64,000 bases of DNA from NCBI GenBank assembly GCA_037951105.1, contig JBAMJV010008508.1, positions 1 to 64,000 on the forward strand, written 5' to 3'. Position numbers and translations under genes: made by a program. The notes under the pieces were generated by a model that was not told the origin of the DNA, did not search any database, and was given only the letters and a program-made list of their open reading frames with translations. This DNA is from Echinarachnius parma (taxonomy: Eukaryota > Echinodermata > Echinoidea > Clypeasteroida > Echinarachniidae). Numbering within the stretch: the stretch's first letter is position 1; every line of letters begins with the position of its first letter. Shown piece by piece: positions 2,379-56,200 of the stretch.

Positions 2379-2535
2379 GCAAATAATATTCGTATGACGT
2401 ATAGACTCCCCGTTGGCAAACTTAACAATAGTAACTAGGTTCGGCAAGATAAGTATGCCGGAGCTTACCGGACCTAGTTACTATTGTTAAACAGTGCCAA
2501 CGTGGAGTATTACGTCATACGCATATTATTTGCTT
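2379..2535. repeat. Inverted repeat (copy 2 at 14523-14679)
   Basis: Arms contain AACAATAGTAACTAGG and CCTAGTTACTATTGTT, flanked by CGCAAATAATATTCG and CGCATATTATTTGC. It looks like a small hairpin MITE. Confidence 0.7.
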
Positions 2536-2536
2536 A

Positions 2537-2764: not shown

Positions 2765-2913
2765 AACGGTCGTTCTAGGACGGGAAACTCGTTCTCGTTC
2801 ACATAAGCGAAAACTCCCTAATAACAATAACTCGTGAGCACAAATAACATATTATACCAATGTGCTTATGTGCATATTATAGACGGAACGATACATGTAT
2901 ATTCCAGGTTATG

Positions 2914-3357: not shown

Positions 3358-4081
3358 TGGTTATGGTTTGACTGTTGGCAGGATGACATTCTCACCATTA
3401 TGAATACCTGAGGCTGATACTTTGACAGGAGTCATTGACAACGAAATAATGTACAGCAGTATAATTATATCGAGTAGTCATTTACTCGTTTATACGCGTT
3501 CTGTATTACGCTATATTGTCACCCTGGCCTGGTTTATGATAATTATTACAAAAACGGAACAAAATATTTCGAATAACAATGCCGCACAAGGTAAACAAGA
3601 GTCTAATGCAAGTGCACTGGGAAAAAGGGGAAAAATCCCATATTTATTGAAGGTTATTATTAAGTAGGTCTATGTTATTATGAAGCTCTTTGTACAAAGT
3701 GGGTCTCCCTTCCGGCATGTCTGGCTCGGGGCCAGGGGTGTAACCACTGATCTCGCTTGAGCAATCTATATACATGGGCCATTCTCTTTTCATATCTTTG
3801 TTGGAAGTCATCAGGCGGCCATCTTACCACTACCCAATTATGTAAAAGTGAATATTCGGGCAAAAAACACCAAACCGTTCGGGCGAAAATATGTTACATT
3901 CGATCGGGCAAACTCATATAATATTCGGGCAAAAGCATGCTATACTGGGGGAAAATCATTTTAATTCGGGAAAAGTCTTTAAAAAGTATATAATTTTCAG
4001 GCGGTTAAAACGTGATAACCCTTTGGTTGTACGTTGCTTGTCATGTGAAAATGGGGGAGATGGTATTCGAGCAAAATAATT

Positions 4082-4108
4082 CCCCCCCCCCCCCCCCCCC
4101 CCCCCCCC
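4082..4108. repeat. C homopolymer, 27 bases (30 at 16226-16255)
   Basis: A pure C run. The length difference between copies is one of the two changes in the first 6.6 kb of the duplication. Confidence 0.95.
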
Positions 4109-4711
4109 ATGGCCAGACTTGAGAAAATGCGCCCGTTCACCCATGGCGGAACACGGCGTCATTTTCGTCGGCAAATAACATATTATATAGTCAATCTAGA
4201 TTCTAGATTATGTTTCTATATCAGTGATGAGTGTAACATGGGTTAACGATCATTGAGGGGACACGGGGAACACGCTTTATGTAATTCCTCAGTTCAGTAA
4301 TTCTTTTGTCAATCTTTTTTGCAACGATATATACGTACTGCTCATTATTCAAGTTCAAGTTTACACAATAAACAAACGGCTTTGCAGTAACATCGCATAC
4401 CTTTACTGTGCCAAAAATACAATTATATACTCAGAAAATATGTCAAAACAACTCAACAATGTTATATGTTTTCAGTACTTACAGTAAGATAAAATGTTAG
4501 ATGGAGAGATTGTTTGTTTGTTTGTTTGTAGCCTATGTTTTATTTTATTTATACACGGTAAAAAGCCCTCGATCCGCCAAAAGAGGCTGTTGTATAGAGA
4601 TCAATTCATTTTATGCTATGTCACAATGACCTTGTACTATATAACTATGTATGTTATAATACCAAAGAATTTGAAAACATAACTTTTGTCTGTTTTTAAT
4701 GTTTGTTTTTA

Positions 4712-4790
4712 GGTAAGTCAAATCCGAGCCGAGCTTTAGGACCTAGCGGATCGGCTAGATCCAAAGGTCCGGCTCGAATTTGACTTACAT
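4712..4790. repeat. Inverted repeat (copy 2 at about 16859-16937)
   Basis: GTAAGTCAAATCCGAGCCG and CGGCTCGAATTTGACTTAC pair around a 36-base centre. It is a small hairpin element. Confidence 0.6.
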
Positions 4791-4904
4791 TTCATTATTT
4801 TAGCCTTATATTGTACATAATTATAGTGGATATAGTTCACAAAAAAATTCGTATTCTGTTTGTTTAATTGAATTACATTTTATTCTGATTCTGACGTAAA
4901 CAGT

Positions 4905-5048
4905 AAAACCAGTGTTAGTGGGCACCCGTTTATAACAGCCAAGCTTCGTATATAAAGTGATCCCTAAAAACAGTGTTGTGGAACCTGTCTACAGTGGACA
5001 CTTATTTTGTTTCCCTTGGGTGGTCACTATACAAAGGTTTGACTATAT
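4905..5048. mobile_element. Small repeat with GTGGTCACTATA end (copy 2 at 17052-17195)
   Basis: GTGGGCACCCGTTTATAACAG at the left and GGTGGTCACTATACAAAGG at the right resemble the element at 11644-11832. The ends recall pogo/Tigger-type MITEs; that class call is uncertain. Confidence 0.45.
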
Positions 5049-5274
5049 GATTTAGAATGTAAAGGGGCACATTGTAAGTTGATCATTAATAAAGACGAAT
5101 CTAGATAAAAAGAATGTGTCATATACCATTTTGTAACCCTAACCCATTGATGAAGGGGCGTAATGAATGTGAAAAATATGATTGAATAGTTTTGACATAT
5201 CAACGCAAAGATGCATCTCTTTCTCGCGATACATAAGCTACCTTAAAAACTACGAAAAACTTACATGTACACAT

Positions 5275-5535
5275 ACGTGCCGTGCACACACACACACATA
5301 CAGACATACAGACATACATATACACATGCATACATTGCATGCACAATTACATAAACCCAAGCAAAAACACATGCACAGGCACACAAAAAAATACATACAC
5401 CACAAAAGTACATACTTGTACATAGACATACACACATAAATACATACATACACACATAAACATACACCGCAGAAATACATACATACATACATACATAAAT
5501 CCACACACATCCACATATATATACATACAAACATA
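5275..5535. repeat. ACAT/CA-rich microsatellite (copy 2 at 17422-17682)
   Basis: Degenerate CACACATACA/ACATACAT tract. The Cys/Tyr/Val-rich reading frames through it are artefacts of the repeat. Confidence 0.9.
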
Positions 5536-12090: not shown

Positions 12091-12627
12091 ATACAGGGTG
12101 GCCCCCCAAAAACGGAACGGGGCACTTCCCAAAATATAGTACCCAAATATTTATGTCCATCGGATAGTGTGTCCTTTCCGATGAACAACGATACCAAGAA
12201 CAGTAATTTTGGTCTTGTAGTTTTTGTTTTAGGACGCTGTGAGTGAGACCATATCAGGTGCCCATTTTTGTCAATTTGTACCTAGTCAATGCCAGTTAAA
12301 TCGCACACCCTGCCCGTAATACCACTGACCGAACATGCCCATTCTCTCGGCACACGGCTGAGTGCACACTAACAATGGCGCGCCTTGTTCATTGCTATGA
12401 AAGGCGGTACGTGCGATGTATCAAGCACTGGCTCGGTAAAAATTGACAAAAAAGAGAACCTGACATGGTGTTACTCACAGCGCCCTAAAACAAAAACTAC
12501 ACGACCAAATTGACTGTTCTTGGTATCGTTGTTCCTTTGAAAATACACCCTATCCGATGGACATAATACATTTTGTTACTTTACTTTTGGAAGTGCCCCG
12601 TTCCGGTTTTTTGGGTCACCCTGTATA
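12091..12627. mobile_element. Hairpin MITE with TACAGGGTG-type ends
   Basis: Ends are TACAGGGTGGCCC and GGGTCACCCTGTA with GGAACGGGGCACTTCC inside each. Long inner arms (CCGATGGACATAA; TACCAAGAACAGT) are inverted copies around a unique core. The start of copy 1 (1-483) is the same element cut by the window edge. It is a non-autonomous DNA transposon of uncertain superfamily with no ORF. Confidence 0.75.
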
Positions 12628-15600
12628 CAAGAAATTATAATTGTGTAATTTATATTTTGTGCCCCATTCCGTTTTGTTGGGCCACCCTGTATACAAGAAA
12701 TTATAATTGTGTAATTTATATTTTGTAACTTGGAAACAGTGGCCCATTCATTATACTTTTAATATAATACCAATTATACTCAGATAAATAATCAAAGACG
12801 GAATGTTACAAGTTTGCAGGTTATGATATCGTTTAATGACTTTTGGCATGATGATGATCATAGTTTCACTAGGTAATTATATAGGCTACCTGCTACTTTG
12901 ACGGGAATTATTATCGACAACGAAATAATGCACAGCAGTATCGAGAAGTTAATTACACTGTATTTTGATTGTTCATCTGCGTTCTGTATTACGCTATTGT
13001 CACCCTGTTAAATGTTTCATATATTCACACGGTCGCCATGATTGTCATGACCGTCATGGTCAGGCAGATTTACGTTTTTGTGTTGCATTGTTGCATTCAA
13101 TTTCATTTTTATGTGCTCAGTTTCCGGTTACTTCTTGCATTCAGTTAAATTAATGTGACTTTTTTCTTTCTTCTAAATTGTGATATAATTATAATAAATA
13201 ATACTTCGCGCAAAATTAATTGTAAATTAATACAAACACCCACACATTGACACTACGGTATTTTCGCAAACCTGAAGACGACGAGTAGTGGGGTGGTTAA
13301 GGGGTCCATGACTGCATTTTGGGGTACGATTGTTTTACTTGGCATACATACTCCTTGGATCAAAAGAAGAAAATTCGTCAAAAGAGACACTCTGTATCTA
13401 TGCAAATTAGGCCTAATTTCCATAATTGATAAACAGAGTGTCTCTTTGGATAAATTTTCTTCTTTTGATCCAAGGAGTTTGTATGCCAAGTAAAACAATT
13501 GTACCCCAAACTGCAGTGAACACCCATATTTGTGGCCCCTACTAGAAGAAATGACGTCATTTAGGCGAGAAATTACGTCACTTACGTTCTCTCTCGTCGT
13601 CTGGCCAATCTGAGCACTAGTTCATGCCCGATTTCAGGTTCGTCGGAAAATCCAGTGCACCGTCTTCAGAATTACGTAATCAGAGAAGTATCAATATGTA
13701 TATGTGTGTGTGTGTGTGTTTTATACGTGTGTATGTGTATGTGTGGTGGATTATGTAACTGGTGTATGCGTGTGTGTTTGAATGTGTGCGTGTGTGGCTT
13801 TGTGTACGTGTGTGCGCATTTGTGCGTGTGTGTGTGTGTTTGTGAGTGTATGTTTGTGTTTGTTGGAATGCGAGTGCCTGCGTGCGTGTGTTTCTGCGTA
13901 TGTGTACGGGTATGGGTTTTTGTTTGAGTGTGTGCGTGTGTTTGTGTTTGTTTGAGTGCTCGCGTGGATGAGTGTGCGTGCGTGTGTTTGTGTGTATGTG
14001 GATGTGCGTTTGTGGGTGTCTGTGTGCATTTGTGAGTGTGCATTCATGTGTTTGTGTTTGTGTGGGTGTGTGTTGTGTATCTGTATGCGTATGTGTGGGA
14101 GTTTTATTAATGTTGTGTTTGTGTGTATACGCGTGTGTAAGGGTTTGTGTTTGTGTGAGCGCATGTGTGGGGTGTTTGTGTGCATTGTTGTTTGTTTGAG
14201 TGCGAGTGCGTGCGTGCGTGCGGGAGTGGATGTTTGTGCGTGTGAGTATACGTGTGTGTAAGTGTGTGTGTGTGTTTTGTGTGATTGAATGCGTGTGTGT
14301 GTGTCTGTGTTGGAGTTTGAATAATTCAGTCGGGTCGTGTGTTTGCGCATGTGTATGTTTGAAAGTGTAAGGTGTGTGTGAGTGTTTGTCATGATTGTGT
14401 TTAGAAGGGAACGACGTCATTGTGAACGCGCGTTAACTAAAAACGAAAATGGTTCAAAGGCAGCGAACAGGTAGTGAACAGCACGGGTTGACTACATCCA
14501 ATAGACCGCTTCTGTGATGTACGCAAATAATATTCGTATGACGTATAGACTCCCCGTTGGCAAACTTAACAATAGTAACTAGGTTCGGCAAGATAAGTAT
14601 GCCGGAGCTTACCGGACCTAGTTACTATTGTTAAACAGTGCCAACGTGGAGTATTACGTCATACGCATATTATTTGCTTATACAGGGTGGCCCAGAAATA
14701 ACGGAACGGGGTACTTTCCATTATAAAGAAATATACAGACTAGGTTCACTGGATAGATAATCTTTTAAAAAGAACTTTGATATCATCAACAGTAATGTCT
14801 TTGTTTGGGTGTTCGGAATAACGAATTTCTTTTAAAAAGATTATCTATCCAGTGAACATATTATCACAATGGCAAATACCCCGTTCCGTTATTTCTGGGC
14901 CACCCTGAAACGGTCGTTCTAGGACGGGAAACTCGTTCTCGTTCACATAAGCGAAAACTCCCTAATAACAATAACTCGTGAGCACAAATAACATATTATA
15001 CCAATGTGCTTATGTGCATATTATAGACGGAACGATACATGTATATTCCAGGTTATGCACTGTTAAAACGCTGTGTAAACAAATTCAACAACTTGTTAAC
15101 ATTTTTCAACAACCGCTGTTTAACATAATCCATCCAACTGTTGTTGAAAACATTCAACAACCCCAGTTGTTTAAAGTGTACACAACTGTTGTAGTTCAAT
15201 TTTTCAGCACAAAAGCGGCAAGATCGGAATCGAACCGGGGATCTTTCGGTTATAATTAAGCCTCACCATCTCACTCTCTATCGACTGCGCTATCTCGGTT
15301 CGCTTGCTTTGCGATGGGACAAAAGGGGTTTTGACGCGGTGATTTTGCGGTCGAAACTATCACGTGATGTAACACGTTTCATCAACGCTTGAACAATGTC
15401 CGCTTCACTCAACCCTTCTTTGTACAACTTATCATGCTACACGTAAAGTTGTATAACAACCATTTTTAAACAGCGTTTTTTTACACAGCGTTTTAACAGT
15501 GTGGTTATGGTTTGACTGTTGGCAGGATGACATTCTCACCATTATGAATACCTGAGGCTGATACTTTGACAGGAGTCATTGACAACGAAATAATGTACAG

Positions 15601-16224
15601 CAGTATAATTATATCGAGTAGTCATTTACTCGTTTATACGCGTTCTGTATTACGCTATATTGTCACCCTGGCCTGGTTTATGATAATTATTACAAAAACG
15701 GAACAAAATATTTCGAATAACAATGCCGCACAAGGTAAACAAGAGTCTAATGCAAGTGCACTGGGAAAAAGGGGAAAAATCCCATATTTATTGAAGGTTA
15801 TTATTAAGTAGGTCTATGTTATTATGAAGCTCTTTGTACAAAGTGGGTCTCCCTTCCGGCATGTCTGGCTCGGGGCCAGGGGTGTAACCACTGATCTCGC
15901 TTGAGCAATCTATATACATGGGCCATTCTCTTTTCATATCTTTGTTGGAAGTCATCAGGCGGCCATCTTACCACTACCCAATTATGTAAAAGTGAATATT
16001 CGGGCAAAAAACACCAAACCGTTCGGGCGAAAATATGTTACATTCGATCGGGCAAACTCATATAATATTCGGGCAAAAGCATGCTATACTGGGGGAAAAT
16101 CATTTTAATTCGGGAAAAGTCTTTAAAAAGTATATAATTTTCAGGCGGTTAAAACGTGATAACCCTTTGGTTGTACGTTGCTTGTCATGTGAAAATGGGG
16201 GAGATGGTATTCGAGCAAAATAAT

Positions 16225-16255
<31 letters not shown>

Positions 16256-19042
16256 ATGGCCAGACTTGAGAAAATGCGCCCGTTCACCCATGGCGGAACA
16301 CGGCGTCATTTTCGTCGGCAAATAACATATTATATAGTCAATCTAGATTCTAGATTATGTTTCTATATCAGTGATGAGTGTAACATGGGTTAACGATCAT
16401 TGAGGGGACACGGGGAACACGCTTTATGTAATTCCTCAGTTCAGTAATTCTTTTGTCAATCTTTTTTGCAACGATATATACGTACTGCTCATTATTCAAG
16501 TTCAAGTTTACACAATAAACAAACGGCTTTGCAGTAACATCGCATACCTTTACTGTGCCAAAAATACAATTATATACTCAGAAAATATGTCAAAACAACT
16601 CAACAATGTTATATGTTTTCAGTACTTACAGTAAGATAAAATGTTAGATGGAGAGATTGTTTGTTTGTTTGTTTGTAGCCTATGTTTTATTTTATTTATA
16701 CACGGTAAAAAGCCCTCGATCCGCCAAAAGAGGCTGTTGTATAGAGATCAATTCATTTTATGCTATGTCACAATGACCTTGTACTATATAACTATGTATG
16801 TTATAATACCAAAGAATTTGAAAACATAACTTTTGTCTGTTTTTAATGTTTGTTTTTAGGTAAGTCAAATCCGAGCCGAGCTTTAGGACCTAGCGGATCG
16901 GCTAGATCCAAAGGTCCGGCTCGAATTTGACTTACATTTCATTATTTTAGCCTTATATTGTACATAATTATAGTGGATATAGTTCACAAAAAAATTCGTA
17001 TTCTGTTTGTTTAATTGAATTACATTTTATTCTGATTCTGACGTAAACAGTAAAACCAGTGTTAGTGGGCACCCGTTTATAACAGCCAAGCTTCGTATAT
17101 AAAGTGATCCCTAAAAACAGTGTTGTGGAACCTGTCTACAGTGGACACTTATTTTGTTTCCCTTGGGTGGTCACTATACAAAGGTTTGACTATATGATTT
17201 AGAATGTAAAGGGGCACATTGTAAGTTGATCATTAATAAAGACGAATCTAGATAAAAAGAATGTGTCATATACCATTTTGTAACCCTAACCCATTGATGA
17301 AGGGGCGTAATGAATGTGAAAAATATGATTGAATAGTTTTGACATATCAACGCAAAGATGCATCTCTTTCTCGCGATACATAAGCTACCTTAAAAACTAC
17401 GAAAAACTTACATGTACACATACGTGCCGTGCACACACACACACATACAGACATACAGACATACATATACACATGCATACATTGCATGCACAATTACATA
17501 AACCCAAGCAAAAACACATGCACAGGCACACAAAAAAATACATACACCACAAAAGTACATACTTGTACATAGACATACACACATAAATACATACATACAC
17601 ACATAAACATACACCGCAGAAATACATACATACATACATACATAAATCCACACACATCCACATATATATACATACAAACATACACTATGGAATAATGATC
17701 GATAGAAAAGAGATGGAATAATGAGACTGGGGCAAATGCTGAAATATCTGAAGGAAAACATGCAGTATGCACGACACATTTATAATAGTAGTTCAGAAGC
17801 ACGTTTATCATGCTATCCACATTACTGACATTAATCATAGTGAGTGGTACATGCACAGTATTCCAAAATGTTCATTCACAAAATTGTGACATTTTATGAA
17901 TATATCGCATAATAAATCCACCCTTTCCCTCAGCCCATTCCCACATTATCATTCCATACAACATGTATTGTTTGGTCCTTTCTGTGTAAAGTTATAGTTT
18001 TGTAGGAATTTATCTTACCATTTTCTCTTTGTTAAAGAGAGAGCTATTAAAAAGGCTTAATAATGCTCTTTGTTCGACATGCTGTGTTTCATTACTGTTA
18101 GAACAAAACATTTGCATATTAGTTATTACCATCATTAACCACAGAAATGATGGCTTAAACATTCGATGTCCAGTTTTGTTTCCATCTTTCAAATCAGAGA
18201 ACAATGCATTTAGCTTGTTCCCTACTAGATTCTGCAATCCCCAAACACCACAGACTGGACCCGTCAGGTTCCCGACAGTAGGCAATGGGTCAATAGCATT
18301 TAGCACATTTGCAAGGTGTTGTAGAACCAGAAAAATATTATCTACAATCGTCCCGGCTATTTGATATAAATCAGTAATCATGCGGTCATGAAAAAAACTT
18401 CTCAATCGAATGATTCAAAAGAACCTATTTATCACAACAAACTCTGTTGTAACGAGGTACCTGATATAGCGAGGCTATTTCACAGGTTCAGGTTATATGT
18501 ATTTTATTATTTCTAAGCCCTGATACAACGAGATATCCGATATAACAAGGTAAATTCAATGGGCCCCCGAGGTGCTCGTTATAACGAGGTTTCACTGTAC
18601 ATGAAGATCACATACAAATTCCGGCTCACAAAATGTCAGGCAATTATCATTCGGTCACATACACAGATATATAGTTGCCTGTATAAAAATATCTAGCAAT
18701 CTTTCAATCAGAAATAGGCCATAAAGTTCACGTCTGCTCTTGCGATAAATATACAAGAGCAAATTACATCTTTCCATCATGAATGAAATCAAACAGTTTA
18801 TATTTGACCGTGTTGATTTACACTAAAGACATTCCATGTAAATATTCATTTATGATCATTTCAATATTTTAGGTCGATAACTGATACCAGTTGATAACTT
18901 CTCACTTGTGAAGCCATGTATAAAATACTTGCTAAAAATCAAACAACAATAATTAAATAATCAATCCAAAAATATTGTTACAAAAGAAAGAAAGAACATT
19001 AAATTAGGAGTTGGGTTATTTAGGAGCTTGAAAATACTGGGA
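12145..19042. repeat. Large direct repeat, copy 2
   Basis: Second copy of the segment at 1-6890. It ends abruptly at 19042, after which the sequence is unrelated to copy 1. It carries the same MITEs, satellites and candidate exon. It may be a recent tandem duplication or an assembly duplication. Confidence 0.95.
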
Positions 19043-22252: not shown

Positions 22253-25200
22253 CTGAAACAAATAGATAAGAGAATCGCACATTTTGTAAGATTTTTGGTA
22301 AGTACGCAAGTGCAGTTAAACATATATGATCCTTTGAATCACTTAATTGGCAGATTCTTTCCGTATCCTTGTCCGAGGTGTCCCACCGCAGATTGTCCTT
22401 TTTCAACATCTTTGCCACTTTAAACATTTGATTTTTTGAATCCCTAAATTTGGCACATCATTTCATTATGCTCGTCCAAGATATCCAATTGAAGATATTG
22501 GTCTCTGATCTCCTGTGCCTCTTTAACAGCGACTTGAAATAGATGTGGAAAAAGGAGAGGTAAAATATTTGAAAGACGGTGAAATATTTCAGTGCACAAG
22601 TGAAGTTAAACTTGTTAGATCATAAGAATTCGTAAATTTCATGATTCTCTCGTTACAATCGTCCAAGATGTGTCACTATGGATAGCGATGTTGTAGGGGG
22701 TTGTTATATGGGTGGTGAACAAGATCAATAGCCAAAGATCAGAGACATGGGGGCCCGTTGCAGAAAGAGATACAATCGATTGTTACAATTTACAATTAAG
22801 TTACAATTAATTGTAAGTCAGAAAATGTGTGCATTTCAACCCATCAGATTTGCGCATTTAGAACCACATGATCTGACTTACAATTAATTGTAACTAACAA
22901 TCAATTGTTATCTCTTTCTGCAACTGGGCCAAGGTTATGCTTCAGTTAATAGTTTTATGGATGCTTAACAAGTAAATGTAGATGTATTTACCTTGATGGT
23001 TTTGACGAGGTCCAGGTCTAGATACGAGTCTGAACGAACACACAGGGCGTACTGTTAGTTCAGTTAGTTTTATGGATGCTTAACAAGTAAATGTAGATGT
23101 ATTTACCTTGATGGTTTTGACGAGGTCCAGGTCTAGATACGAGTCTGAACGAACACACAGGGCGTACTGTTAGTTCAGTTAGTTTTATGGATGCTTAACA
23201 AGTAAATGTAGATGTATTTACCTTGATGGTTTTGACGAGGTCCAGGTCTAGATACGAGTCTGAACGAACACACAGGGCGTACTGTTAGTTCAGTTAGTTT
23301 TATGGATGCTTAACAAGTGAATGTAGATGTATTTACCTTGATGGTTTTGACGAGGTCCAGGTCTAGATACGAGTCTGAACGAACACACAGGGCGTACTGT
23401 TAGTTCAGTTAGTTTTATGGATGCTTAACAAGTGAATGTAGATGTATTTACCTTGATGGTTTTGACGAGGTCCAGGTCTAGATACGAGTCTGAACGAACA
23501 CACAGGGCGTACTGTTAGTTCAGTTAGTTTTATGGATGCTTAACAAGTGAATGTAGATGTATTTACCTTGATGGTTTTGACGAGGTCCAGGTCTAGATAC
23601 GAGTCTGAACGAACACACAGGGCGTACTGTTACTTCAGTTAGTTTTATGGATGCTTAACAAGTGAATGTAGATGTATTTACCTTGATGGTTTTGACGAGG
23701 TCCAGGTCTAGATACGAGTCTGAGCGAACACACAGGGCGTACTGTTAGTTCAGTTAGTTTTATGGATGCTTAACAAGTGAATGTAGATGTATTTACCTTG
23801 ATGGTTTTGACGAGGTCCAGGTCTAGATACGAGTCTGAACAAACACACAGGGCGTACTGTTAGTTCAGTTAGTTTTATGGATGCTTAACAAGTGAATGTA
23901 GATGTATTTACCTTGATGGTTTTGACGAGGTCCAGGTCTAGATACGAGTCTGAACGAACACACAGGGCGTACTGGTAGAAACCCTTGGCTGGGGCCTTGA
24001 ATTGCAGCTGGATCTAGAGGATGAAGAGGTAAGATCAAGTCAGTGGCATAGGTACAGGGGAAAAGTTGAAGCCCCCCTTGGGAAATTAAAACCCCCCCTG
24101 TAAACTACCCTCTAGGAAATTACAAGACCCCCAAGTACTCCTTCTCCACTCAATATAACGCGTATCGGTATAAATCCTTGGCCGGGGCCTTAAATGGACT
24201 TTATAGTAACATTGTCCAAATCCTCAAAACTTACTTGGAACTCTAGTGGTTCTCTCATACCTTATCATATTCATATTAACAATGAAAGCACGGGACAGGT
24301 TTCGGTTTTTCAAATTTCCATTCCGTTCAAACGATATTTACGATTGAAGCGTTCAGATGTTAGATTGTCTACGGGATAATTTAAGCTGTGTACAAAGTAA
24401 GCGCAATGAGTTAGTGAATATCACTTTGCATTTTTGCTCATATCTCAGCCAAAAAACATCCAATTAACGTGAAATTATCGCACATTACTTTGCGGACATA
24501 TCAGATCCCACCAATAGACATTTTATTAATCACTCATCACGTTTTAAATTGCAGCAGGATCTAGATGATAGAGAAATCAAAGAAATTTGGTTATATAGAG
24601 CTCAACACTAGCACTTGCCTGATTACAATGATTTGGCAAGTAAACTTGTAAAAATAGTCTAATTTTATAGTTGCTTGATTGAGCAACTTACATTACTGTT
24701 CAACTGTGATAGAAAAATGTAATTCCTACATGTAAATCTCATATAGAAACCAACAAATTCGCCTAGCAGTTTGAGCTACGTGCCAGGAATTGTAATGCTC
24801 TATGGCATTTGTGTGTATTGTAACTCGCAAAAATGCGAGCTTGGCACTCAAGGAGTTAAAGAGGGTTTTGTTATATCAGGGAGGTGTTGCGTAAAGATAT
24901 GCCATCAATCGGAAAGTTGTGATTAATCGCAAGTCAGAAATTATGTGCATTTGAACCGATCAGATTCGCGCATTCAGGCGTATTTTTCTGACTTGATCCG
25001 ATCTATCGCAACTCTTTAGTATGCAACAACCCCCACAGTTCTTTATAACTGTGATAGTAGTATTCTTACCTCCTTCTCGCCCTTGAGGTCATAGACCATA
25101 GAGGGAGACGTGACCATCCTGAGACTCTTCCTGTCAGCTAGGTACACCCACCACCACTCATTCTTCACCTGAAACAAAACAAATATGGATAGTAATAGTC

Positions 25201-38200: not shown

Positions 38201-41200
38201 TACAGTGTGCAATTTCAACTCCATGGAGAGCATACGGCCAATGAGCAGCCTTGGAGGCGCATCAGGCAAGCAAAAAATATGACAAAATACATGTATGGTG
38301 CGATTGATACACAGAGTGGTATATTAGCAAAAATATATCTGAGAGGGAAAGATATAACAATTTTACAAAGTAGACTATGATTTTTTTTATCGGAGATAAT
38401 AACCAAACACTTTATACACACAACTACCCTTAATTCTATTTTATATCATTTGAGCATCATCAGCATTTTATTTCATTTTACTAGCTGTGCACAATGAACT
38501 AAATCTCTAAAAAAATATAAGCTCTTTCCACAAGGTTTTTAACGCAGTGAATGTGCATAAGAGCCTGCCTTCATCTAAGGCCAGGGGGGTGTTTCACAAA
38601 GATCCTAAGTTGAACTTAACTCTAAGTTGGACTTAGCAAATATGGAATGCCGTCAGTTTCTTTGAAACAATTTTGTACAATTTCTTTAAAAAGGCAATAG
38701 GTGTTGATTCCAATCATTGATATTTTCCATTATCAAGGAGATTTTATGTTCTCGATGTAAAATTTATAAAAAAAGTCTAAAATACTTGCATTTTTGCTTT
38801 TGAGTATACTTTACTTCAAGGCTACACATGGCTGTCCATAATTTTTAAGTCCAACTTAGAGTTAAGTTCAACTTAGGATCTTTGTGAAACACCCCCCTGA
38901 TCAATTATAATTCATCTTGAATAGATACATTGTCCTTTTACACACTCTATTTGTGCAAGAAACTAATGTATTTAAAAAGAAAAAAAAATTGTTAAGAGAC
39001 AAACCTCTTGTCAGTGTCCTTCAATCTGATGAACTGACCTATACTCCTGATGTTCCTCTGCAAAAGTGAAATGAAAATATATAAATATGTTGATGTTTCA
39101 TTAAAAGGATAGTTGAGTTTTGGTATTAAAAGAGAGTAGAGTTTTGGTCAAACTGAATTTTCGTAACCTACACCTGCACCATTACATTACAAACTAATGG
39201 TTATATCTCCACTATGCTCGAAATGAATACAAAAATTACAAAAGACTAAGTAAAAAGCCGGTTAGCATTAAATAGAGAACTGTTAAAACTCAAGAGGGCG
39301 CTCTCAAAAAACTCATTGGTTTCAACCATTTTAGATAAAATATTGTGCATACATGTGATGTTTTGTTGAAGTAGTGATTAGATAGAGAGATAATCAACAA
39401 CTATTTAAAAACCTCTTTTGTACATTTTTGAAAAGAGGAAGCATTTTTTTTTAAATTAACCATGTTAACGGTTGGTTCAAAATTATCGAATAATTGTGGG
39501 GCCCCACAATTATCATGCATGCAATTTTTCACGGCGATCGGCCGCTCCGCGGCCGAGATCTTAGGGTGGGGCCATAATGGCCCCCCCCCCCCCCAGCCTG
39601 CTGAAGACCTCAAATAGCCCGGCCTTTTTAGGGTTAAAGGGAATCAAACTAAAGGTTATAAATCATTTTGTAAACCACTATTCAGGTAAGTAAAGATAAC
39701 ATTAACACATTACACTTTAATTTCAAATATTACAACTGATTTTTAACTGACCTTTTTTGACTGGCAAAGCCCGAGTGTCTCCTCAGCATCATGAGGGGTG
39801 ATTTACCCCCACGTTGCATGTATGATCACAGGGCTTAACAGACTTTTAACTGACCTTTTTTGACTGACAAAGCCGGAGTGTCTCTTCAGTGAAGTGTGGA
39901 AGTTGCATGAGGGGTGATTTATCCCATGTTGCCTGTATGATCATGGGGCTCAGTTTCATGATGTGCTCTATCGTCTGAAGTTTAGGCTCCTTGGCAGCTG
40001 TAATAACAACACACAGATAATGAAGACTACTTATGCCTAGGTCACAAATGCACCGGGTGCCGCACAATTTTTCTACCTACGGCAGATTTTTGGAAAGTCT
40101 GCTGTATCTTGGGTAGCAATCACATCCAGTAAATCACACATGGACGCCTTACGGGACTCGTACGGACATCGCAAGATACTCTTACAATAACTTTGAAATC
40201 TTACCACTACCATATGATTTGAGTAGCCCAAACTTCAGTCTCAAAATTGTATGATATTCAGAAAAATGTTTAGGTTGAAAACTCATCTTCTCTTCTCCGC
40301 TTCTTTGTGATTGTTAATGTTTTACTATATACTGTACATGACGTTTATGTTATATTTACGTTTAAACTTACAAGCACTTATAGGTTTTCTGCAATATGCG
40401 CTATACAAATATACATTATTATTTGTACTTGCCCAACGATGAAAAGTTAATTTCTAGCATGACTTACGATTTCCCCCGTTGTATTTAAAGAAGACGATGA
40501 GCTGAGCCGCTGTGTTGACCATCTCTTGGACTAGCTGCGGACACTTCTTCACCATGTACAAACGATCTACATGAACAAGAAAACAGGAGGTATAGTGGTT
40601 ATAATAATAATAATAATACACATCTTTTATATAGCGCATATCACACTGCAAATGCACGTCTCTACACGCTTGTATTATTACCCTGGTCGTTACTGGTACA
40701 GTTCAAACCCGCACAATTATCTTACGCACCATCTCAACTCCCTGGGGAGCATACTAGCCAATGGCAGCCATATGATAGCGCCCAGGCTAATTGACATCCA
40801 ATTAGGTACCCATTTATACTTCTGGGTAGAGAGCAGCAATATGGATTAAAATGTCTTGCTGAAGGACATAAATGATGGGACATCAATCGGGTTTGAACCC
40901 ACGACCTCTAGATTTGAAGTCAAGCGTCCATCCGATCGTGCCACACCATCCCCATAAACTGCAACTAATCTTAAAGTTTTCAACTGCAAGTCTAAGTAGG
41001 AGCCGTTTAATATAGGTCTAGGATAAATCTCAGTTATAAAGGTTGTTTCGCCTTGTGAGGCTCTTCAGTAACTGATTAAAATTTCACTTGGGGTACAGTT
41101 GCAAGTACACTTATATATAATAGACCAAAAGATAACATATTTACAGGGATCTAGTAACTATGTTGACATAAAAAAGTTAATAAAATGTATATTTCTGAGA

Positions 41201-44200: not shown

Positions 44201-47200
44201 TCATTAAAGTTTCTACATAGTCAAAATAAATGGGCAGTAGGCAATACAAACTGAAATCAATTTTTCAATAATGTAAACGGTGTTCTTTCACTCATCTTTC
44301 AGAGAAATCTTACACTGAGAATGGATTTTGATGCGATTCTCAAATAACACTTTTGGAAAAAAATCTGGTGTCATCACCATCATCAACATAGACGAAATTG
44401 TGATGAATATGCTTTACACGCTTCAGCTAAAAGCAAAAGGGGTTAAAAGACGAGTGAACAAGATGGGTCGACTGTTAACAATTTGTATCGTCAGAGAATG
44501 GGATCCACGTCCTTATCCACACAATCAAGAGGACTCTACAACAAAAGGGTGTCAAAGATATTGAATGGGAGGGGTTGACTTCAACCAATTTGCATCGTCA
44601 GAGAACCGAAACGACGTCCTCATCCACACAATCAAAAAGCCCCTACTGTTGTACTTACTAACATCATGAGGGGTTTTTAAGATAGCATAGCTGCCAGCCT
44701 GCTTAGATCAAAAATCAGAATGAATTAAGCAAAAAGTAGCAATCTTCATATACATGTAACTACATGCTTTTACATTGAGATTTCTGTGCAAAAAGGGGAA
44801 TCAACTGTCTATAGCCTACAAGAGGGGGAAAAATAGGAATCATCCCTCCAAAAGAGGAATAGTTGGCAGCTATGAGAGAGTGATTGGGAGGGGTCGACTG
44901 TAATCAGGGGGTGTTTCACAAAGATCCTAAGTTGATCTTAGCACTAAGATGGTCTTAAATATTATGGAAAGCCATTAGTGTCTTGAAACAGTTTTATAAA
45001 AGTTATGTTGAAATGCATAAAATGTTGATTCAAATCATATATATTTTCTAATTATCAAAGAGATTCATAATCTTCACATAAAATTCATGAAATCTCTTTG
45101 ATAATTAGAAAATATATATGATTTGAATCAACATTTTATGCATTTCAACATAACTTTTACAAAAATGTTTCAAGACACTAATGGCTTTCCATAATATTTA
45201 AGACCATCTTAGTGCTAAGATCAACTTGGGATCTTTGTGAAACACCCCCCTGCTCACATTGTCAGAGAACAGGAAAGACATCCTCGTCCACACAATCGAA
45301 ACTGTTGTACTCACGTTTAAGGTTCATACAGGGTGTTTTGTGGAGATAGTATTGGAAGAGCTGAGTGGTGTCAATCAGAATCTCCACGGCGGTGTAGCGG
45401 ATGGACCGATACCACCATGTCCCCTGGTAAAAGGAGAAATTGAAGAAAGATACCATAAGGATAACGGTTAATAAAAAGGATTTTCCCTAATAATCTGCAA
45501 AAGGCATGCACGATACAGAATCAATAACATTTTTAGAGGAAATATTGTAAGAGCCGAGGGGTGTCCATCAAAATCTCTTCAGTGGTGTAGCGGATTGGCC
45601 GATACCACCATGTCCCCTGGTAACATAGACAAATGCTCGCCAGCATTGCACCTCCGGCCCTTCGCAGGGAGCACCACACACAACAACTAGTAAACAAGGC
45701 ACCCCCTACACCACATCACCCAAAACGCACAACTAGGCTGTCAACGCCTGCATTCCTGTAGACCCTTCAGCCGCCAACCAGCATCTCTGCAAGATTTCAG
45801 CCGCCAACCAGCATCTCTGCAAGATGGTACCTACAACACCCTCAGCGCATGGAAGGACGGCTGGCAGCAGACCCCTCGACCCTCCCCCCCCCCTCCCCAA
45901 TTCACAGTGACCCCCAACTCAAAGCTGCCAACAGGTGCGGACCTACCACAAAGAGACTGGGTCACCCTCAACAGTCTCTGTACAGGAGTTTGCAGATTTT
46001 AACGTCTACATTATGGACCTTTTATTAAATTTGATTTGCCCAACATATTAGTTTACCTTAGGCAACGCTCGAAATTAACTTTTTTTGCTGGTGGCCCGGT
46101 CGGGCCAGTAAAATTAGTATTTTTCCAATTTTGGTGGCCCGAAACCAAAATCTACTGGCCCGAAGAAAATAAAGAAAAACAAAAGAAAAAAAACGAGAAA
46201 ATTAATATCACATTCAAAACTGTGGAAAAGTGCAAAATTCACTGTTATTATACAAATTTGACCTCAACATTCCGTGTAAATGTCATGTGAAAATCTCAGA
46301 CAAATAACATGTTTTTAAATTGTGGTGTTTTAAGCTAATAATTGTAAGTCAAAAAGCCGATTCATCGGCTGCAAACATTGACAAGTCACCGATCTACTGT
46401 ATCCGATTTCGAATACGGCAAACATGATTTATTGAGTTTTACATGCATAACAAATTTGATTGATAATGGAAATTTGTGCTTATATATCAGACTTTTAATC
46501 TCACAATTCCGTAGAATATTGTTTTGAAACCTGTCATGAATGACACATTTTTCAAATTGTGGTGCTATATTTGTAAAACTGTTAGTCAAACATTTATAAA
46601 TTCTTTGTGAACTTACGGACACAGTCACAACATCGGCGGCAACACAAGACGTAGACAATGCAGACACAACATAGGCTATGTTGAATTTTACATGCGAACC
46701 AAATTTGATCGATTATTAAAATATCCTCTCACATTTCAGACTTTTAACCTCACTTTTCCATGGATTATTGTTTATAAACCTCACATAAATTAAATATTTT
46801 CAAATTGTGGGTTTTTGTTGTTGAAATTTTGGTGTCAAACATTGATGAATTGATCGTAAACTTTCTATGCTCACGTAAATTGCATGCACACTCACTACAT
46901 GTTTTTACATTCCATATTTGGAATTGGAAAGCTCCATTCACAAAACGGGGGTGTGGGGATAAACAGAATGGAAAAAAAACACAAATTAAACTTTTACAAA
47001 TCGGACAACATTTCTCTTAACTTATTTCCGCAAGTGTAGCAAATATTATTCTTGATATTTCCTATTATTTATTCAAGTTTTATATACAAACTGAACTGAT
47101 AACAGAATTAATTTGATATCCTTCTACCTATCCCAAGTGGAACATGCTGTACAAATTTTACATGTGGGATCGGATGGGGGGCGGGGCAGAAATAATGCTA

Positions 47201-50200
47201 ATTATAATAATTTGCGCCTTTTCTAAGCTGTCGGCAGAAGAAAAAAAATCACACAAAACTGTTCATTATTGATCTCTCTTTCCTCTCTTTTTAAACCACA
47301 AATCAAGTATTTTCTTTGAGGTATCAAATTTGCAATAAGAACCATAATATTGTGCACAATTGTTTCAACACATGGTGGCCCGATCGGGCCAGCAAACATT
47401 GGAATTATGAGTTTTTTACTGGCCCGACAGCAATTTTTGGTGGCCCCGGGCCATCGGGCCTGTGCTAATTTCGAGCGTTGCCTTAGGCAAATAAGGCAAG
47501 AGCTAGCATCAAGTCCTGGATTTATACACTTACCACAGTTATAGGAAGTATGACCATGAATGCTAACCCGTAAGCTGCTAACACCTGAGAAAAGATAAAT
47601 GAAAACAAAATGAAAATGTTATTCATTAAAAGTATTTCATTCTTAGACTCAATGTATTGAAGAAATACTAAATTAATCAGCAATTAAATATTATAAAGCG
47701 AATGTTGCAAAGGACATTTTCAATGAACTATTTTTAGTTTCCATTTTCGATTATTGCAATTCGAGAATTCTAATGTATTCATAAAACTATAATTACTATG
47801 TTTGAATCAGTGTGGCTAATATGCTCCCAGGGGAGTTGAGATGGTACACAATATTTTTGTTCTCACAGAAAGTCTCTCTGCAAAAAAAGGGGAAATACCC
47901 CGCCATCGATGAAGGCGGGACAGTTTGGTAAAGTTTGCAAAAAGTTTGCAAACAAAAGCCTTACACAAGGTAATTTTCATCTTTTATTGATTGTGTAGAA
48001 ATGAATTTTCAAAATATTTAGATATACAATATGATTTTGCGGGTATGAACTTTACCCAATGACCAGGGGTAATGAAAGCGCGAGGAGTGACACATCGTGA
48101 CAAACCTGAGAGTAATATAAGATACCATTATTAGATTTCCATTTGTTACCATCTCACTACAAGGTGAAATATATTATACAGAAGTGGTCTTTTCATGGAA
48201 ATTGACAAGTTAATAATGGATAAGTTCACAATAGTACAAAAAATATCTAAACATACCCAGACAGAATTATTCTGATCCACAATCCACGCTGGAAGGGCAA
48301 TTCCAAATTGTGTAGCTGGAAAAAAAAGGAGAAAATATTTCAGTAAAATGTAAAAATATAACATAGTCAGTGAGGTGGGTGGCATATAAGATACTACGTG
48401 TGCATACAAAGGGAACAAAATAACCATGGAAGGATTGTCACAGTGTGACACATAAGGATTTATAAGACGCAACTATTAACATGTTTAGGGGGGTGTTTCA
48501 CAAAGATCCTAAGTTGAACTTAACTCTAAGTTGGACTTAAAAAGTATGGAAAGCCATTTGTAGCCTTGGAAGCAAACATGCAAGTATTTTAGACTTTTCA
48601 TCAATTTTACATGAAGAACATGAAATCTCCTTGATAATAGAAAAATATGAATGATTTGAAACAACATTTTATGCCTATTTAAAGGACTTTTACAAACAAA
48701 AATTCAATGAAACTAACAGCTTTCCATACTTTTTAAAGTGATTATTCAAAGAAAAAGCAACATAAGCCAAGTTTCATCTTTCCAAACAGTTCAAATCATA
48801 CAGAAAATGAAAATATCACTTTCCAAGTACTCGCACATCCGAAAAAGAAAAAAAAAATGAAAATATTAAACGCTGTTTCAAAACCACAATCCCGCTACGA
48901 GCGGGGTCCGATAGCCGGGTGTGTTGTACTGACGTAGAGCGAGGGGTTATCCAATCAGAAGCCTCGGTTTCTACCACATTATATACCGGATTTATACCCC
49001 TTTATACCGGGGATTCCGTGGTTGTTTTAACTATATTATATACAATTATGGTGGTTCAAACTTTTTGAACTAATGCATAAACAGCTTATATTCGTTGTAA
49101 ATGTATTCTTTTATTCATTTATATGTCTGATAATGTAAAAATACAGGTAAATAAATCACCTAGTCTGCGAGTGAAATCATACTACGTGCGGTGCGATGTG
49201 AGTGTATAGGCTAGTGTGTACCGTGCATGCACCCCGGGCGTCCCCGCGCACGTACGAATGGTACAGGTGCCAGCGCCTCCAATTCAGCTCGCGCTCCTCC
49301 TCTCGATCTTCTCTATAGCTCTCCTCGATACCCGGTACCGCCCGCGCCCCCGGCCCAGCCAGCTAACCCAGACGCCCCGCTCACATGCACACACCGGCCC
49401 AATCGACGGGTTCAATTCAAGCCAGTACAAACAACATGCAAAATTACAACTCTGCTCGATCAAGATCACATATATATGCTGGCCTGCGCAATAATACTAT
49501 ACTAGCTAGCATGCACTGCATCGAATGTTTAGCGTGCAAATTAAAAACACGTGTGCTACGAACGTAATTTTCCTAACAAATAATCCTGGATCGGACGGAG
49601 TTATTTTCACGATTTGACAACATTGTCATTGAGCTGAGCTGAGCGAAGTATCGGAGAGCTGTTCTCTGTCTCGTCTAGCTCATCTTCTACTTCAAAACTC
49701 AAATCTAAATTCAAGTCGTCCGCCATTCGAGGTGCTTTAGTCAAAAGAAGTTGGAGTAACACGAACAAGATGTCAACAGAATATGCACGCTAACCTATAT
49801 AAAATGCACCGTTCGCGCATGCGCAATCGATATAGCTGAGAATGTGCATCCTTGGGTGACGTCATCAATCTAAGCGGCGAAATCACGGTGGATACGGGCT
49901 TGGTTTGAAGGGTGAATTTTTCACATTTTCAATTTTAAAAAAAATATATAAAAAAAATTGCAAAAAATCTGAAATTTGCCAGTCTTATAAAGTAGACGAT
50001 TACCTTCACATTCATACCAAATTCGACTCAATTTATAATCAATATACCAGCAGTTTAAGTCAAACTTAGAGCTAAGTTCAACTTAGGATCTTTGTGAAAC
50101 ACCCCCCATGATTGGCCCACAAAATACTTGAGCAAAGGGTCTATGCAGGGCTCGAAGTTAGCATAGGCCCACTGGCCCAGGGCCACCAAAAATGAGCTTC

Positions 50201-53200
50201 GGGCAATGTCAAATGTTACTTGCCTGACTGGGCTAGCAAAATTAACAGAATTGGACATGGTTTTCTTTGTTTTAATAGGGCCACTCAATTCTGGCTTCAG
50301 GCAAGCAAATTTTAACAAATCTTCTAGTCTACTTGCCCGAATGGGCCACCAGGTAAGAAAATTAATTTCTAGCATTACTCTATGAAATATATGAAATATA
50401 ATGATAATGCATGTTATAGTAAAACACAAGATATCGCGAGAACGAAAACCGGACGGATGGACGGACAGACGGACTACATATTATACGGATGTACGTACGT
50501 ACGGACGGACAAACCAACAAAATAATGCATCCGGCCTAAAAAAAGGCATTAAAATAGCTTTGAGTGGGTAGAGTGCCACGACTTACCTTGCCTTCCATCT
50601 GGATTTCCATGCTCCTCCCAGTTTCTCCTCGATTCTTCATCTGTTAACCTGTGAAAAGAAGGGTATGTTCACAATAATGAATTCTTATCAATGAAAGTTA
50701 TTTTGTTGATTTATATCATATATCTCTAGTCAGTTTCCTAATGTTTGAAATAACAAATAATATCTTCATGTTTTGGGGGAAAATCAACTTCCATACTCCT
50801 CCCAGTTTCTCCTCGACTCTTCATCTGTTAAAGGTAGTTCAGATTCGTCAAATGAGATGCGCGGCGCCATCTTGCATACGCGTTGCGCACGGTGCGTAAT
50901 GCACGTTAGCTCAGTGTCATGCGGTGCGCGCAAACTAACCCAGTTCAAAATGGTGACCCGCTATGTAGCATCCCCACGCTTGATGCCCTTTAACCTGTGA
51001 AAAGAAGGGTGTGTTCACAATAATGAATTCTTATAAATGAAAATTATTTTGTTGATTTATATGATATATCTCTAGTCAATTTCCTAATGCTTGAAATAAC
51101 AAATAACATTGTCATGTTTTGGGAGAAAATCAGTTTATAGACTCCATACTCCTCAGTTTCTTCTCGACTCTTCATCTGTTAACCTGTGAGGAGAAGGGAA
51201 TGTTCACAATAATGCATTATAACAGTAACATTTTTGTCCCCCCTTTTGTTCTTGTTCAATTTAGCCTGTACCTGTTCCCACCTTCTCTCTACCTGTTTTA
51301 TGTATATAAACTGGGTTCCAAAAGAAACTTATCATTTCTTCAGAGCGACGCTCACTAAAATCCATCGCATCAAATTGAATCATATTTAGACACAGATAAG
51401 CTATCATTCTCCTTATGAAGCATATCTGAAAAATTGAATGGTTGCTTTTGCCAAAAAAGAGAAAAATGCGAAGGAATCGCTACAGGTCATTTTACAAAAA
51501 TCACAGAAACTGCTCGCTGCGAACCTCCACGAAAGGCGGTCTATTCAGAACTTTCAATAGCTATTAATTCAACATCAAAGGCGGGTTATGTAACCACCAG
51601 GCTGGCTATTGTCCGTACCGAGCTCCGTGCCCAGAAGGCGAGCAGTTTCTGTGATTTTTGAAAAATTACCTCTTGCGATTTCACCTTATTTTATTCTTTG
51701 TTGACTAAATCAAACATAATTTTGTTTAGATGTGCATGCTGAGGAATATTATAGCTAATCTATGCCCAATTATGATTCATTTGTATGCTTTAGATTTTAA
51801 TGTGTGTCGCTCTGAAGAAGTGATAAGTTTCTTTTGGAACCCAGTTTAGTTCCACCATGTTTAGTACTTACAGTACTCATCAGTTCATTGCCTAGACGAA
51901 GGATCTGCTAGATTCAAAAGCTTGGCTACATTGACTTACAGTAAAAATGTTCAATAACACACATTTAATGGCTTCACATTTGGGGGAAATCGATGCATAA
52001 ACTGTTACAAATTATGGTTATTAATTAATACGCACCAACAACAAAATAACTATATAATTCACTTGTAGCACATGATTTCAGGTTGTAAACATAATTTATT
52101 CTTTTTATTCTAAAATTTATATAACAAACTTATTACAAGCACCACAAATTGCCTAACTTTATAACACAACTATTTTGAAAACAAGTTAACATAAAAGCCG
52201 TTTTAGATCACATAACATGTAATATTAGATACCAAACGTTAAAAAAAAAATAATACAGATTACTTACGCAGCGTGAGCCTTGGCAATCCTCATGAACATT
52301 TCAGCATTACCGCCTTCCTTATCAGGATGGAACTGCTTGCTCAGCTTACGGTACTGCCGCTTGATCTCCGCCTCAGTAGCACCCTGAATCAAGACCAATT
52401 TATTATCAGATTTATTATGCCATGGTCAACTCATGTCACAATATTCAAAGAATCCAGGGAAAAAAATAAAATTCATTTTTCGGGGACTAGCTTTCAAGCT
52501 TGCCTGCGTAAAAATAATACTCTTAAAATTGGTTTGCATTGAACTCTATACAAATTTGTTTTCCTCACGATACTCTGTATTCCGTAACGTAGTGGATTGG
52601 TTTCCTTTCCTTCATTGTTGATTGTTTTTTACAAACACGGGTCAAATTTTGCCCAGAGGTCAATACCTTTTCTGTAGTGGCAATGGATTTTACTTCAAAG
52701 TGCAAATTTGGCTGTATATAGAAATGAATACATTTGGACAATATGCACTTACCCACTGCTCGAAACTAGCAGAGGCACGCTGGCCCAGGGCCACTAAAAG
52801 TTAGCTTTGGGTCACCAAATTTCATTTATTTTGACTGGCCCAGGGCCACTAAAAGTTAGCTTTGGGCCACCAAATCTGGCCCGAAAGGGCAACCAAATAT
52901 AGCAGAATTTCTTATGTTTTCTTTGCTTGGGTCTACCAGATTCAGTCAGGTTTTGGGCCACTAGAATTTAAAATATCTTGTTTTTACTTGCCCAACCGGG
53001 CCACAAGGCAAAAAAAATTCTAGCACTGACTTACCCGATCCACTTGGAGGATTTCAAACGGGTCATACTCTATGTGGTCCCTCTCTACCTGAGATGCTTT
53101 GAGTGCTATTAAAATGAACACAGCCCAGGCAATAAATAGGAATATCCACCTGTAGAAGTAAACAATTGGGAAAAATCAATTATGATCATGACATTTATTA

Positions 53201-56200
53201 TCATCTTCCTTGAATGCCTCCTCCAATTTTAAATAAAAATTAGCGATACTTTAGTTTATGTGGTCCCTCTCTACCTGGGATGCTTTCAGTGCTATTAAAA
53301 TGAACACTGCCCAGGCAATAAATAGGTAAAAAAAAGGTTACAAAATTGACAAAATCAATTACAATCAGTTCATTATTCTATAATCATTTTCCCCTCATCA
53401 TGGTATTATAATAATTTTAACTTTGAAGCACTAATCTGTTATGTAAATCAGTTTGTTCAAAGTCATTTAAACATCAATGGAAACATACTTTCTTACCAAA
53501 TGCTTGGACTTAACACAGGCTTGCTAGCCAAGGGAGACTAACAATTGGCTTTGGGCAATTTTCAAGCAGTCAGCATATCAAGGTAAATTTGAATTTCACT
53601 TCCCCAAATAGGCAACCAAATACAATATAATTTTACAAGATTTTCTTTGGGGCTACCTTTTGCCACCAGATTCAGATTTTGGGCCACTCAAATTAGAAAA
53701 TCATCATATGTGACCTCACACCACAAAACGACCGATAAGTCGGGAAAAATGATTCTGCTAATTTTTACATGACATTAAAGTAGAAGTTATTACCTTTAAA
53801 ATGGTATATAATTTGTCATATTTGGACTAAGCGAACCCTCTCATAATGAGCCCCAAAGATTTGGAACATGGCTGAATTAGTTTTAAAGTTAGGGAGAAAA
53901 CAGGCTGTTTCAAAGATCGGCGTCCATTCAAGCACTGTAATCTGATCATATTTATTTGATTAAAAATCATATTTAAACATGATTTCTGCCGCTCAAAATT
54001 TTACAAAAGGTAGATTATGATACCCTCATTCAGGAAATACCAAAATCTTGAATTTCATATTTTAAACAAAATTTGGCTATATCAGCTAATAACAGACAAA
54101 CTACCACGGCGACATAACGGTCGTTTTGTGGTGTAAGGTCACATATTTACTTGTCAGACTGGACCACAGGGAATAAGCCCTGGTTAATTTCTAGCATGCT
54201 CTTACCTTAAGACATTTTTGACAGTGCTAGATGTTGAGGGTGCCTTGATTTGGGCTCTCTTGGCTTCACACGGGTCACAGTGGCAAGCTTTGCGTGATTT
54301 TTCAGGATCATCTAAAATAAAATAGAAAACAAAATTAGGGAGAAAAATTTTTTAAAATTCAAAATAATCAGTTGGCTGTTGACAAAGTGTAGTGAATTTT
54401 TCAGGATCATCTAAATAAAAAGGAAAACAAAATTAGGGGGGAAAATCAACATTCAAAATAATCAGTTGACAAAATGAAGATAATATTTTACATATTCCCA
54501 GGATCCTTTATTAATAATCCAAGTAAATGAAAATAAAATCTTATGCTGACTTCTTATTTACAATTCACAGAAAGTTGAACAGTGGACAAATAAGTGATGT
54601 AATTTGACAAGGTCATTTTCAAGCTTGCCTGCATGAAAATAGCACTCTAAAGTTGTATTGCATTGAACTCTATTAAAGGGATAGTTGAATTTTGTTAAGG
54701 AGTGTACAGTTTTGGTCAAACTGAATTTTAGTAACCAAAACCTGCACCATTACATTACAAACTAATTTATAACTCCATCATGCCCGAAATGAATAACAAA
54801 TTATAAAGGACTATGTAGTAAAAAGCCTGTTATCATTAAAAAGGAGCTGTTCAAACTCAAGAGGAGGCTCTCTAAAAACTCATTGGTATCAACCATTTTA
54901 TATAAAATATTGTGCATGTGATGTTTTGTTGAAATAGTAATTAGAAAGAGAGATAATCAACAACTATCTAAAAACCTCTTTTGTAAATTTTTAAAAAGAG
55001 GAAGCATTTAAAAAAAAATTAACGGCTGGTTCAAAATTATCGAATAATTGTGGGGTCCCCACAATTATTACAAATGGTTATGGATATTCAGCCATTTCTG
55101 AACCGATTTTGATCAAATAAATTTTATTCTGTCATTAAAATTGTATGCTCTTTCGAATTTGCCACTCAGTTTTTCATTATCTCACAACAAAATTATTTTG
55201 TGTAGCGCCCTCTATACCAAAACTCAACTATCCCTTTAATTTTCTACAGCCTGTACAGGGGGTTCTTTTATGATTCAATTTAGGGCCTTTTTGGCATTTC
55301 AGGGACTCAATCACCCTGAGACCCTGTGTACTTTTTTTAATGGAGGAAAAGGAAGAAACATTTTTTATATGTACAACTTTTATCATAGGCTTTTTGAAAG
55401 AACGAAAATAAAGTCTTGAAATACCCATTTGAAAATCATGTCGTTATACTATTACTAATGTCTAATGAATGATCTTTTCTGTTTACGCCAATTCACACCG
55501 GTGTAACATAATTTACGAACAACTCATCATAGGTTTTTGTACATTACAAATTCACCTTTTAATGGGGGGGGGGGGGGGGGGGGGACTAGTGGGGGGTTAT
55601 CTTTTTGCTTGTTTTCACAAAAATATGAAGGAATAGCTTATAGTTATTACTGATGGGCGACAAGTTGTTCATGACCTTAAGTTTATTCAAATCAAAGCTT
55701 CAAGCTCATAAAATTGCTTGACTTTGTAAAATTGTAATTTTAAAAATTTGACTTAATTGTAAAAATATCAGGACTCAGGTAAAAATCTGCCATCTGTAAA
55801 TTAGCAGCATCTCGCATTATATATGTGTTCTGACAGATTGCAATTAATTAGCCAATTACGAACAACATGCACAATTCTCAACAATGACAACAATGATCCA
55901 TTGAGTATAGCAGGGGGTTGCATTACCGAACGGGTTGTATTTCCGGACATACAAATTCACATAGGAAAAACGTTCAAATTTTGAAAGTTAAATTTGAAAG
56001 TCGGCATTAACGGAGGATAATAAATGGATGTTAAGCAAACATTTTCCATCATTTCCCGATGAAAATAAGCGTCGTGAGGTGTTATACGCGCGTTTTGCCG
56101 CGCACCAGTGGCAGCGCGCATGTCAATAATGACATTCCCATGCAAAACATTCACGTTCGGTTAATACAACCCGCAATTTTGCGTCAGGAAGAGGCTTCTT

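Follow-up and report, generated by a model that had tools for sequence, protein, structure and literature searches.

What does it mean that copies of one short repeat stand directly against the 5' splice sites of several exons of a single gene? The question is raised by a window of 64,000 nt from the echinoid Echinarachnius parma (GenBank assembly GCA_037951105.1, contig JBAMJV010008508.1, positions 1 to 64,000), which carries a SEC63 gene on its minus strand and five pieces of one repeat family, a miniature inverted-repeat transposable element (MITE). Three of the five adjoin exon donors of SEC63, all in one register. In the genome as a whole the family has thousands of copies; these are in excess within the first ~30 bases behind GGTAAG donors and peak sharply at the position in which the target site duplication (TSD) covers donor positions -1 to +6. 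The pattern is probably, on balance, that of a MITE favoring the first tens of bases of introns, where GTAAG is a good target, with a lean toward the antisense orientation at the exact site.

Family copies at the SEC63 donors

Translation of exons 2-5 of the gene gives matches to yeast SEC63 chains (E 6.5e-13), and that of the exon following exon 11 a match to the Sec63 domain of Brr2 (E 2.3e-4); the exon 11 translation alone gave no database match. The family pieces, recognized by direct reading and BLAST, and the features around them are as follows:

52754..53028, plus strand (antisense to the gene): MITE copy in SEC63 intron 3, 275 bp, part of it an internal partial duplication; identity to the family consensus 86-95% in the main blocks
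52747..52753, no strand: inner TSD ACTTACC, intron side (direct reading and the 7-bp rule)
53029..53035, minus strand: outer TSD ACTTACC, which is the exon 3 donor from -1 to +6 (G/GTAAGT), phase 0
53035..53149, minus strand: SEC63 exon 3
53498..54199, plus strand: MITE copy in SEC63 intron 2, interrupted at 53707-54149; blocks 69-75% identical to the consensus
53707..54149, no strand: a different MITE nested within the intron 2 copy, with inverted ends of about 36 bases
53491..53497, no strand: inner TSD TCTTACC of the intron 2 copy
54200..54206, minus strand: outer TSD TCTTACC, which is the exon 2 donor from -1 to +6 (G/GTAAGA), phase 2
40423..40461, plus strand: 39-base 3' end remnant of the MITE at the exon 11 donor
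40462..40468, minus strand: exon 11 donor in the same register, ACTTACG (C/GTAAGT); second TSD copy not found
46063..47480, no strand: 1,418-bp relative with similar termini, off donor; TSD CCTTAGG at 46056-46062 and 47481-47487
50146..50377, plus strand: intronic family copy, off donor; TSD about GTCTATG (50139-50145), CTCTATG at 50378-50384

At each of the three donors, element and exon body are separated by 7 bases that correspond to donor positions -1 to +6: in gene sense, GGTAAGT at exon 3, GGTAAGA at exon 2, and CGTAAGT at exon 11. All three pieces are antisense to the gene, with the 3' (CTAGCA) end toward the exon; the copies in introns 2 and 3 are both complete, and there the same 7 bases are repeated at the far end. 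A first-pass annotation of the window had placed an element at the exon 2 and exon 3 donors with the donor sequence duplicated, had given TCTTACC as the flanks of the intron 2 copy with the exon-side copy as the exon 2 donor, and had noted a common orientation with CTAGCA facing the exon. Direct reading bears this out, joined by BLAST for the first point, and the orientation holds for both copies and the exon 11 piece. The proposed flanking repeat in intron 3, ACTTACCC, is indeed present on both sides, but its eighth base is the element's first C and the TSD is 7 bp. Likewise, the terminal piece at exon 11 abuts its donor in the same register but is 39 bases long, not 35. It is a 3' end remnant only, recognized by a 19-base block with 94.7% identity (E 0.006 against the window); because the element's 5' end was looked for and not found, nor a second TSD copy, no TSD is demonstrable at this exon. 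The remaining two window copies, with TSDs CCTTAGG and about GTCTATG, lie away from donors. Parts of SEC63 exons 3 and 5 are also found copied in neighboring introns (53254-53337; 50787-50960).

The source assembly (1.2 Gb in 14,790 contigs) was searched with the 16-base 3' end of the element, which has 1,597 exact copies compared to 1 for a backward control, and 4,739 copies with up to one change compared to 67. About 219 kb of fetched flanking sequence contained 26 incidental copies, excluding the query copy itself (L087) and two from the window intron 2 copy (L001); this would put detectable copies on the order of 100,000, if such flanks, possibly a biased sample, are representative. A consensus built from 38 copies, which are 73-96% identical to it, is 241 bp long with inverted ends. 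Family members are about 240 bp in length, with termini CAGTGCTCGAAATTAG...TTAATTTCTAGCA(T/C)TG. A perfect 7-bp TSD pair is present in 20 of 48 two-ended copies, and 38 sites have one with at most one mismatch; an 8-bp TSD was considered and rejected, since the two-ended copies show 7 bp. The 23 exact TSDs, a set leaving out the window copies and L088/L091, share a palindromic tendency: rarely A at position 1, T at 3, A/T at 4, A at 5, and rarely T at 7. Short, in many copies, with inverted termini and a constant 7-bp TSD, the family is a non-autonomous terminal inverted repeat DNA transposon, that is, a MITE. One open reading frame from each of two larger relatives (window 46063-47480; L093) had no Pfam match.

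Excess at splice donors across the genome

Are the SEC63 insertions a local accident? In the orientation found there, a donor beside the 3' end of the element reads as nCTTAC, the reverse of GTAAGn. The 3' end is directly followed by nCTTAC 58 times and by nGTAAG 21 times (p 2e-5). Thirty of the 58 cases were read, representing 29 places (L097 and L098 are neighboring tandem copies), and fewer than 29 independent ones, because L081/L086 and L087/L102 look duplicated. The next base provides a G at -1 in 20 of the 29. Twenty flanks were tested for exons, those of all places read other than L081, L082, L083, L087, L089, L090, L102, L108, and L109, and an exon ending exactly at the donor had database support in 10. 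In eight of these a Pfam match runs up to the donor (Thioredoxin_6, Calreticulin, PSMD12, STL11, Laminin IV B, RNase PH, PH, and PDZ; E 0.0023 to 8e-20); two further exons were supported by PDB (BRR2, E 5e-8; AP-3 delta, E 0.0017). Flanks without exon support are L091 (Pfam and PDB), L084, L085, L086, L093, L100, L103, L105, and L106 (Pfam), and L094, where Pfam gave only a match of E 0.037 to an unlikely family and further searches including PDB gave none.

In L088 and L091, as in window introns 2 and 3, a full-length copy has a perfect TSD identical to the donor, in support of the suggestion that the flanking repeats are true TSDs which duplicate it. A unit of exon end, donor, and element end is tandemly repeated in L097/L098 and L103, by reading, and probably also at G000:C6202:57727-58459 and G000:C10265:25908-26373, judging from repeated matches.

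The association is sharp but not confined to one register. GGTAAG is found 1-30 bases before the reversed exact 3' end in 38 cases, the reversed hexamer in 4 (p 6e-8); of the 38, 13 are at gap 1, the exact register, and 25 are spread over gaps 2-30. Hidden duplicated sequence could inflate such counts, and a few contexts do repeat, but about 22 of the 25 look distinct. In the exact register the 13 GGTAAG cases compare to 28 in total for its 18 single-base neighbors (average 1.6), the largest being TGTAAG (7), GGTTAG (5), and GGTAAT (5), with GGTGAG at 1. The donor sequence thus stands out, but only for donors with a TA-centered core. Within the first 100 of 143 matches listed, the donor classes are GTATG (48), GTAAG (44), GTAGG (3), GTACG (3), and GTGAG (2). 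GTATG is therefore about as common as GTAAG beside the reversed 3' end in those 100, with sites classed by motif alone. As an estimate, assuming 240,000 introns, the density of the element in the first 30 bases of introns is about ten times that in average DNA.

That the SEC63 cases are chance, combined with an ordinary TA preference and no genome-wide donor effect, is very improbable. A TA-centered rule does include GTAAG, and this window was picked for being striking, but neither accounts for 38 occurrences against 4 for the reversed hexamer, or for 13 against a neighbor average of 1.6. The first-pass annotation had proposed a genome-wide check for enrichment at donor motifs, with its lack as the refuting outcome; enrichment was found. 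Its proposal that the family targets GGTAAG stands insofar as GGTAAG donors do show an excess across the genome, in one exact register, but it is too narrow as a rule: ordinary TSDs are TA-centered 7-mers, and there is the extra excess 2-30 bases behind the donor.

Most copies read lie away from donors. An unselected set, made up of the 50 exact copies that come first by contig order (L031-L080), includes four with a Pfam-supported exon whose donor is 13 (L071), 38 (L077), 38 (L034), or 71 (L066) bases away from the 3' end. Another copy of the set, L072, is an exact nCTTAC case without exon support and is the same place as L081; L055 has GTAAGG 17 bases away, also without exon support. L056 is a sense copy 11 bases behind GTGAGT, with a weak exon match (E 0.0055), and L073 is 36 bases upstream of an acceptor (ribosomal L18 C-terminal, 8e-7). 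L052 contains one more decayed end, CAATACTAGAAATTAA, which comes after GGTAAAT behind a leucine-rich-repeat-like frame (weak, E 0.081). Ten frames were tested, chosen by eye from 121 listed, so the unselected counts are lower bounds for donors and acceptors alike.

In sense orientation, with the 5' end beside GGTAAG, there is 1 exact case and 4 with one change in the element (C5335 is in both lists), compared to 10 for motif neighbors. Eleven sense copies are 2-30 bases behind GGTAAG, a count without a reversed control. The excess behind donors therefore appears in both orientations, but antisense copies predominate at the exact site. The contrast of 58 to 21 is weaker as a test of orientation, because inner ends are often lost.

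Insertion preference, homing, retention, or new introns

If the family does prefer intron 5' ends, integration may be drawn there through some DNA feature linked to exon edges or to transcription, with GTAAG a favored TA-centered target within the intron start. Insertion at the donor itself would be tolerated because the exon retains an intact donor through the TSD: the exon-side copy would keep serving as donor, and the inner copy would leave with the element and the old intron. Two identical donors might then compete, and an antisense element, T-rich after the donor, could perhaps let the outer one win; sense insertions at the exact site would be lost or never formed. Over time the inner part would often be deleted, so that only the exon-side end remains.

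Several observations weigh against this explanation. Ten of the 20 donor flanks tested lack database support, and 2 of 20 control flanks, from copies without nCTTAC, are also near exons with E below 0.001 (L071 and L077, whose donors are 13 and 38 bases away from the element). Of the 23 TSDs from which the target rule was derived, four belong to loci selected for nCTTAC. On the small exact sets the antisense lean does not reach significance (p 0.14 and 0.25), nor does it with one change allowed (p 0.08). Finally, T is found at +6 in 6 of the 13 exact cases, but in 7 of 50 unselected copies (p 0.02) and in 1 of 46 when validated TSDs are counted both ways (p 2e-4). With T at +6 this much commoner, the donor register may call for more than the ordinary target rule, leaving room for donor homing.

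A homing element would have a transposase or target complex that recognizes the 5' splice site itself, or co-transcriptional splicing, with a preferred orientation and specificity beyond the TA rule. The T at +6 would fit this, as would the sharp peak (13 at gap 1 against 25 across gaps 2-30), the scarcity of sense copies at the exact site, and the three of three in SEC63. If so, it would be a cut-and-paste transposon steered to the 5' splice sites of active genes, mostly antisense, with a TSD exactly renewing the donor; this is unlikely. The spliceosome, U1-bound nascent RNA, or an exon-edge chromatin mark could conceivably do the steering, giving a safe harbor in genes without the making of introns, a suggestion that is likewise doubtful. 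GTGAG donors, however, are nearly untouched (GGTGAG 1 compared to GGTAAG 13, and 2 of the 100 matches listed), so that the TA rule holds even there; the excess extends 2-30 bases behind GGTAAG in both orientations (the sense set being that without a reversed control); and most copies read sit elsewhere. Recognition of the splice site as such is accordingly judged a minor possibility.

Insertion might instead be random, with the 3' end of the element kept beside donors because it helps splicing. Among 20 nCTTACC places, only L088 and L091 retain a perfect far-end TSD, and mostly just the exon-side end is left, as selective retention would have it. But the ratio of one-change to exact ends is 30/13 at donor-register GGTAAG (about 26/13 with tandem copies collapsed) and 3,142/1,597 overall (p 0.6). 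The ends are as mutated at donors as elsewhere, so these data favor an insertion preference over retention; selection on the element end, unsupported by this decay ratio, was set aside, and retention in general is quite improbable. The related proposal that the family persists only when a donor is duplicated fares no better, as mutation has affected its ends to the same degree at donors and elsewhere, and the majority of copies read are off donors.

The element could also have entered exons at GGTAAG and made the introns, as an introner, and its TSD does supply a donor, as in some introner families (PMC9860276). This is hardly credible for the cases read. Three of 13 introns (those of the 10 supported exons plus three of SEC63) are in phase 2, namely L088, L097, and SEC63 exon 2; in that phase the TAA of GTAAG would have fallen in frame, which makes insertion inside an old exon impossible there. 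Intron sequence follows the inner TSD in SEC63 introns 2 and 3, and in L088 and L091 no continuing frame comes after it. In L107 the next exon starts about 800 bases on, by reading. A TSD-like donor boundary is found at many sites, and past the end of the element the introns that were read show no evident relation to one another, except L081/L086. For the sites named, the phase-2 introns and what follows the inner TSD led to rejection of the introner-like character first ascribed to the family: the introns pre-existed, and the element does not appear to create new ones.

An insertion preference for intron starts, if correct, would describe a DNA transposon able to live in genes because the target duplication made on insertion restores the sequence that it interrupts. 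It would provide a natural experiment on donor choice, with many introns having two identical donors around the same insert, and would point to a possible beginning of introner-like systems, in a transposon that had a prior leaning toward splice donors.

Elsewhere in the window there is a direct duplication, approximately 1-5500 and 12145-17700 (offset 12.1 kb), with two 300-base stretches shown to be 100% identical, and a tandem array at 22835-24054 of about 9 units of 115 bp.

Comparison with known systems

From its termini and TSD length, the family may be hAT-like or P-like. MITEs of the hAT superfamily have CAGNG termini and mostly 8-bp TSDs. The family is like them in its inverted termini beginning with CAGTG, its short TSD, and TA in the target, but its TSD is 7 bp rather than the typical 8; it is known here from termini and TSD. 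hAT families annotated with a 7-bp TSD are mentioned in a search example in the Repbase paper (PMC4455052), in the available passages of which no association with donors was seen. In the P superfamily, Galileo has a 7-bp TSD and a palindromic target consensus, GTATTAC (PMC4168063); TSD length and palindromic target are alike, and the passages seen of that source showed no association with splice sites.

A thin search of the open-licence literature found no report of a donor-associated MITE. Some maize Ds insertions are spliced as introns, and there too a DNA transposon has a target duplication that repeats splice-site sequence. Those are single mutant alleles, however, whereas the pattern here is genome-wide and at existing donors. 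Introners derived from DNA transposons have TSDs and inverted ends, and some families obtain their 5' splice site from the TSD (PMC9860276). By that account introners make introns; here the introns pre-existed, and the element sits behind a duplicated donor.

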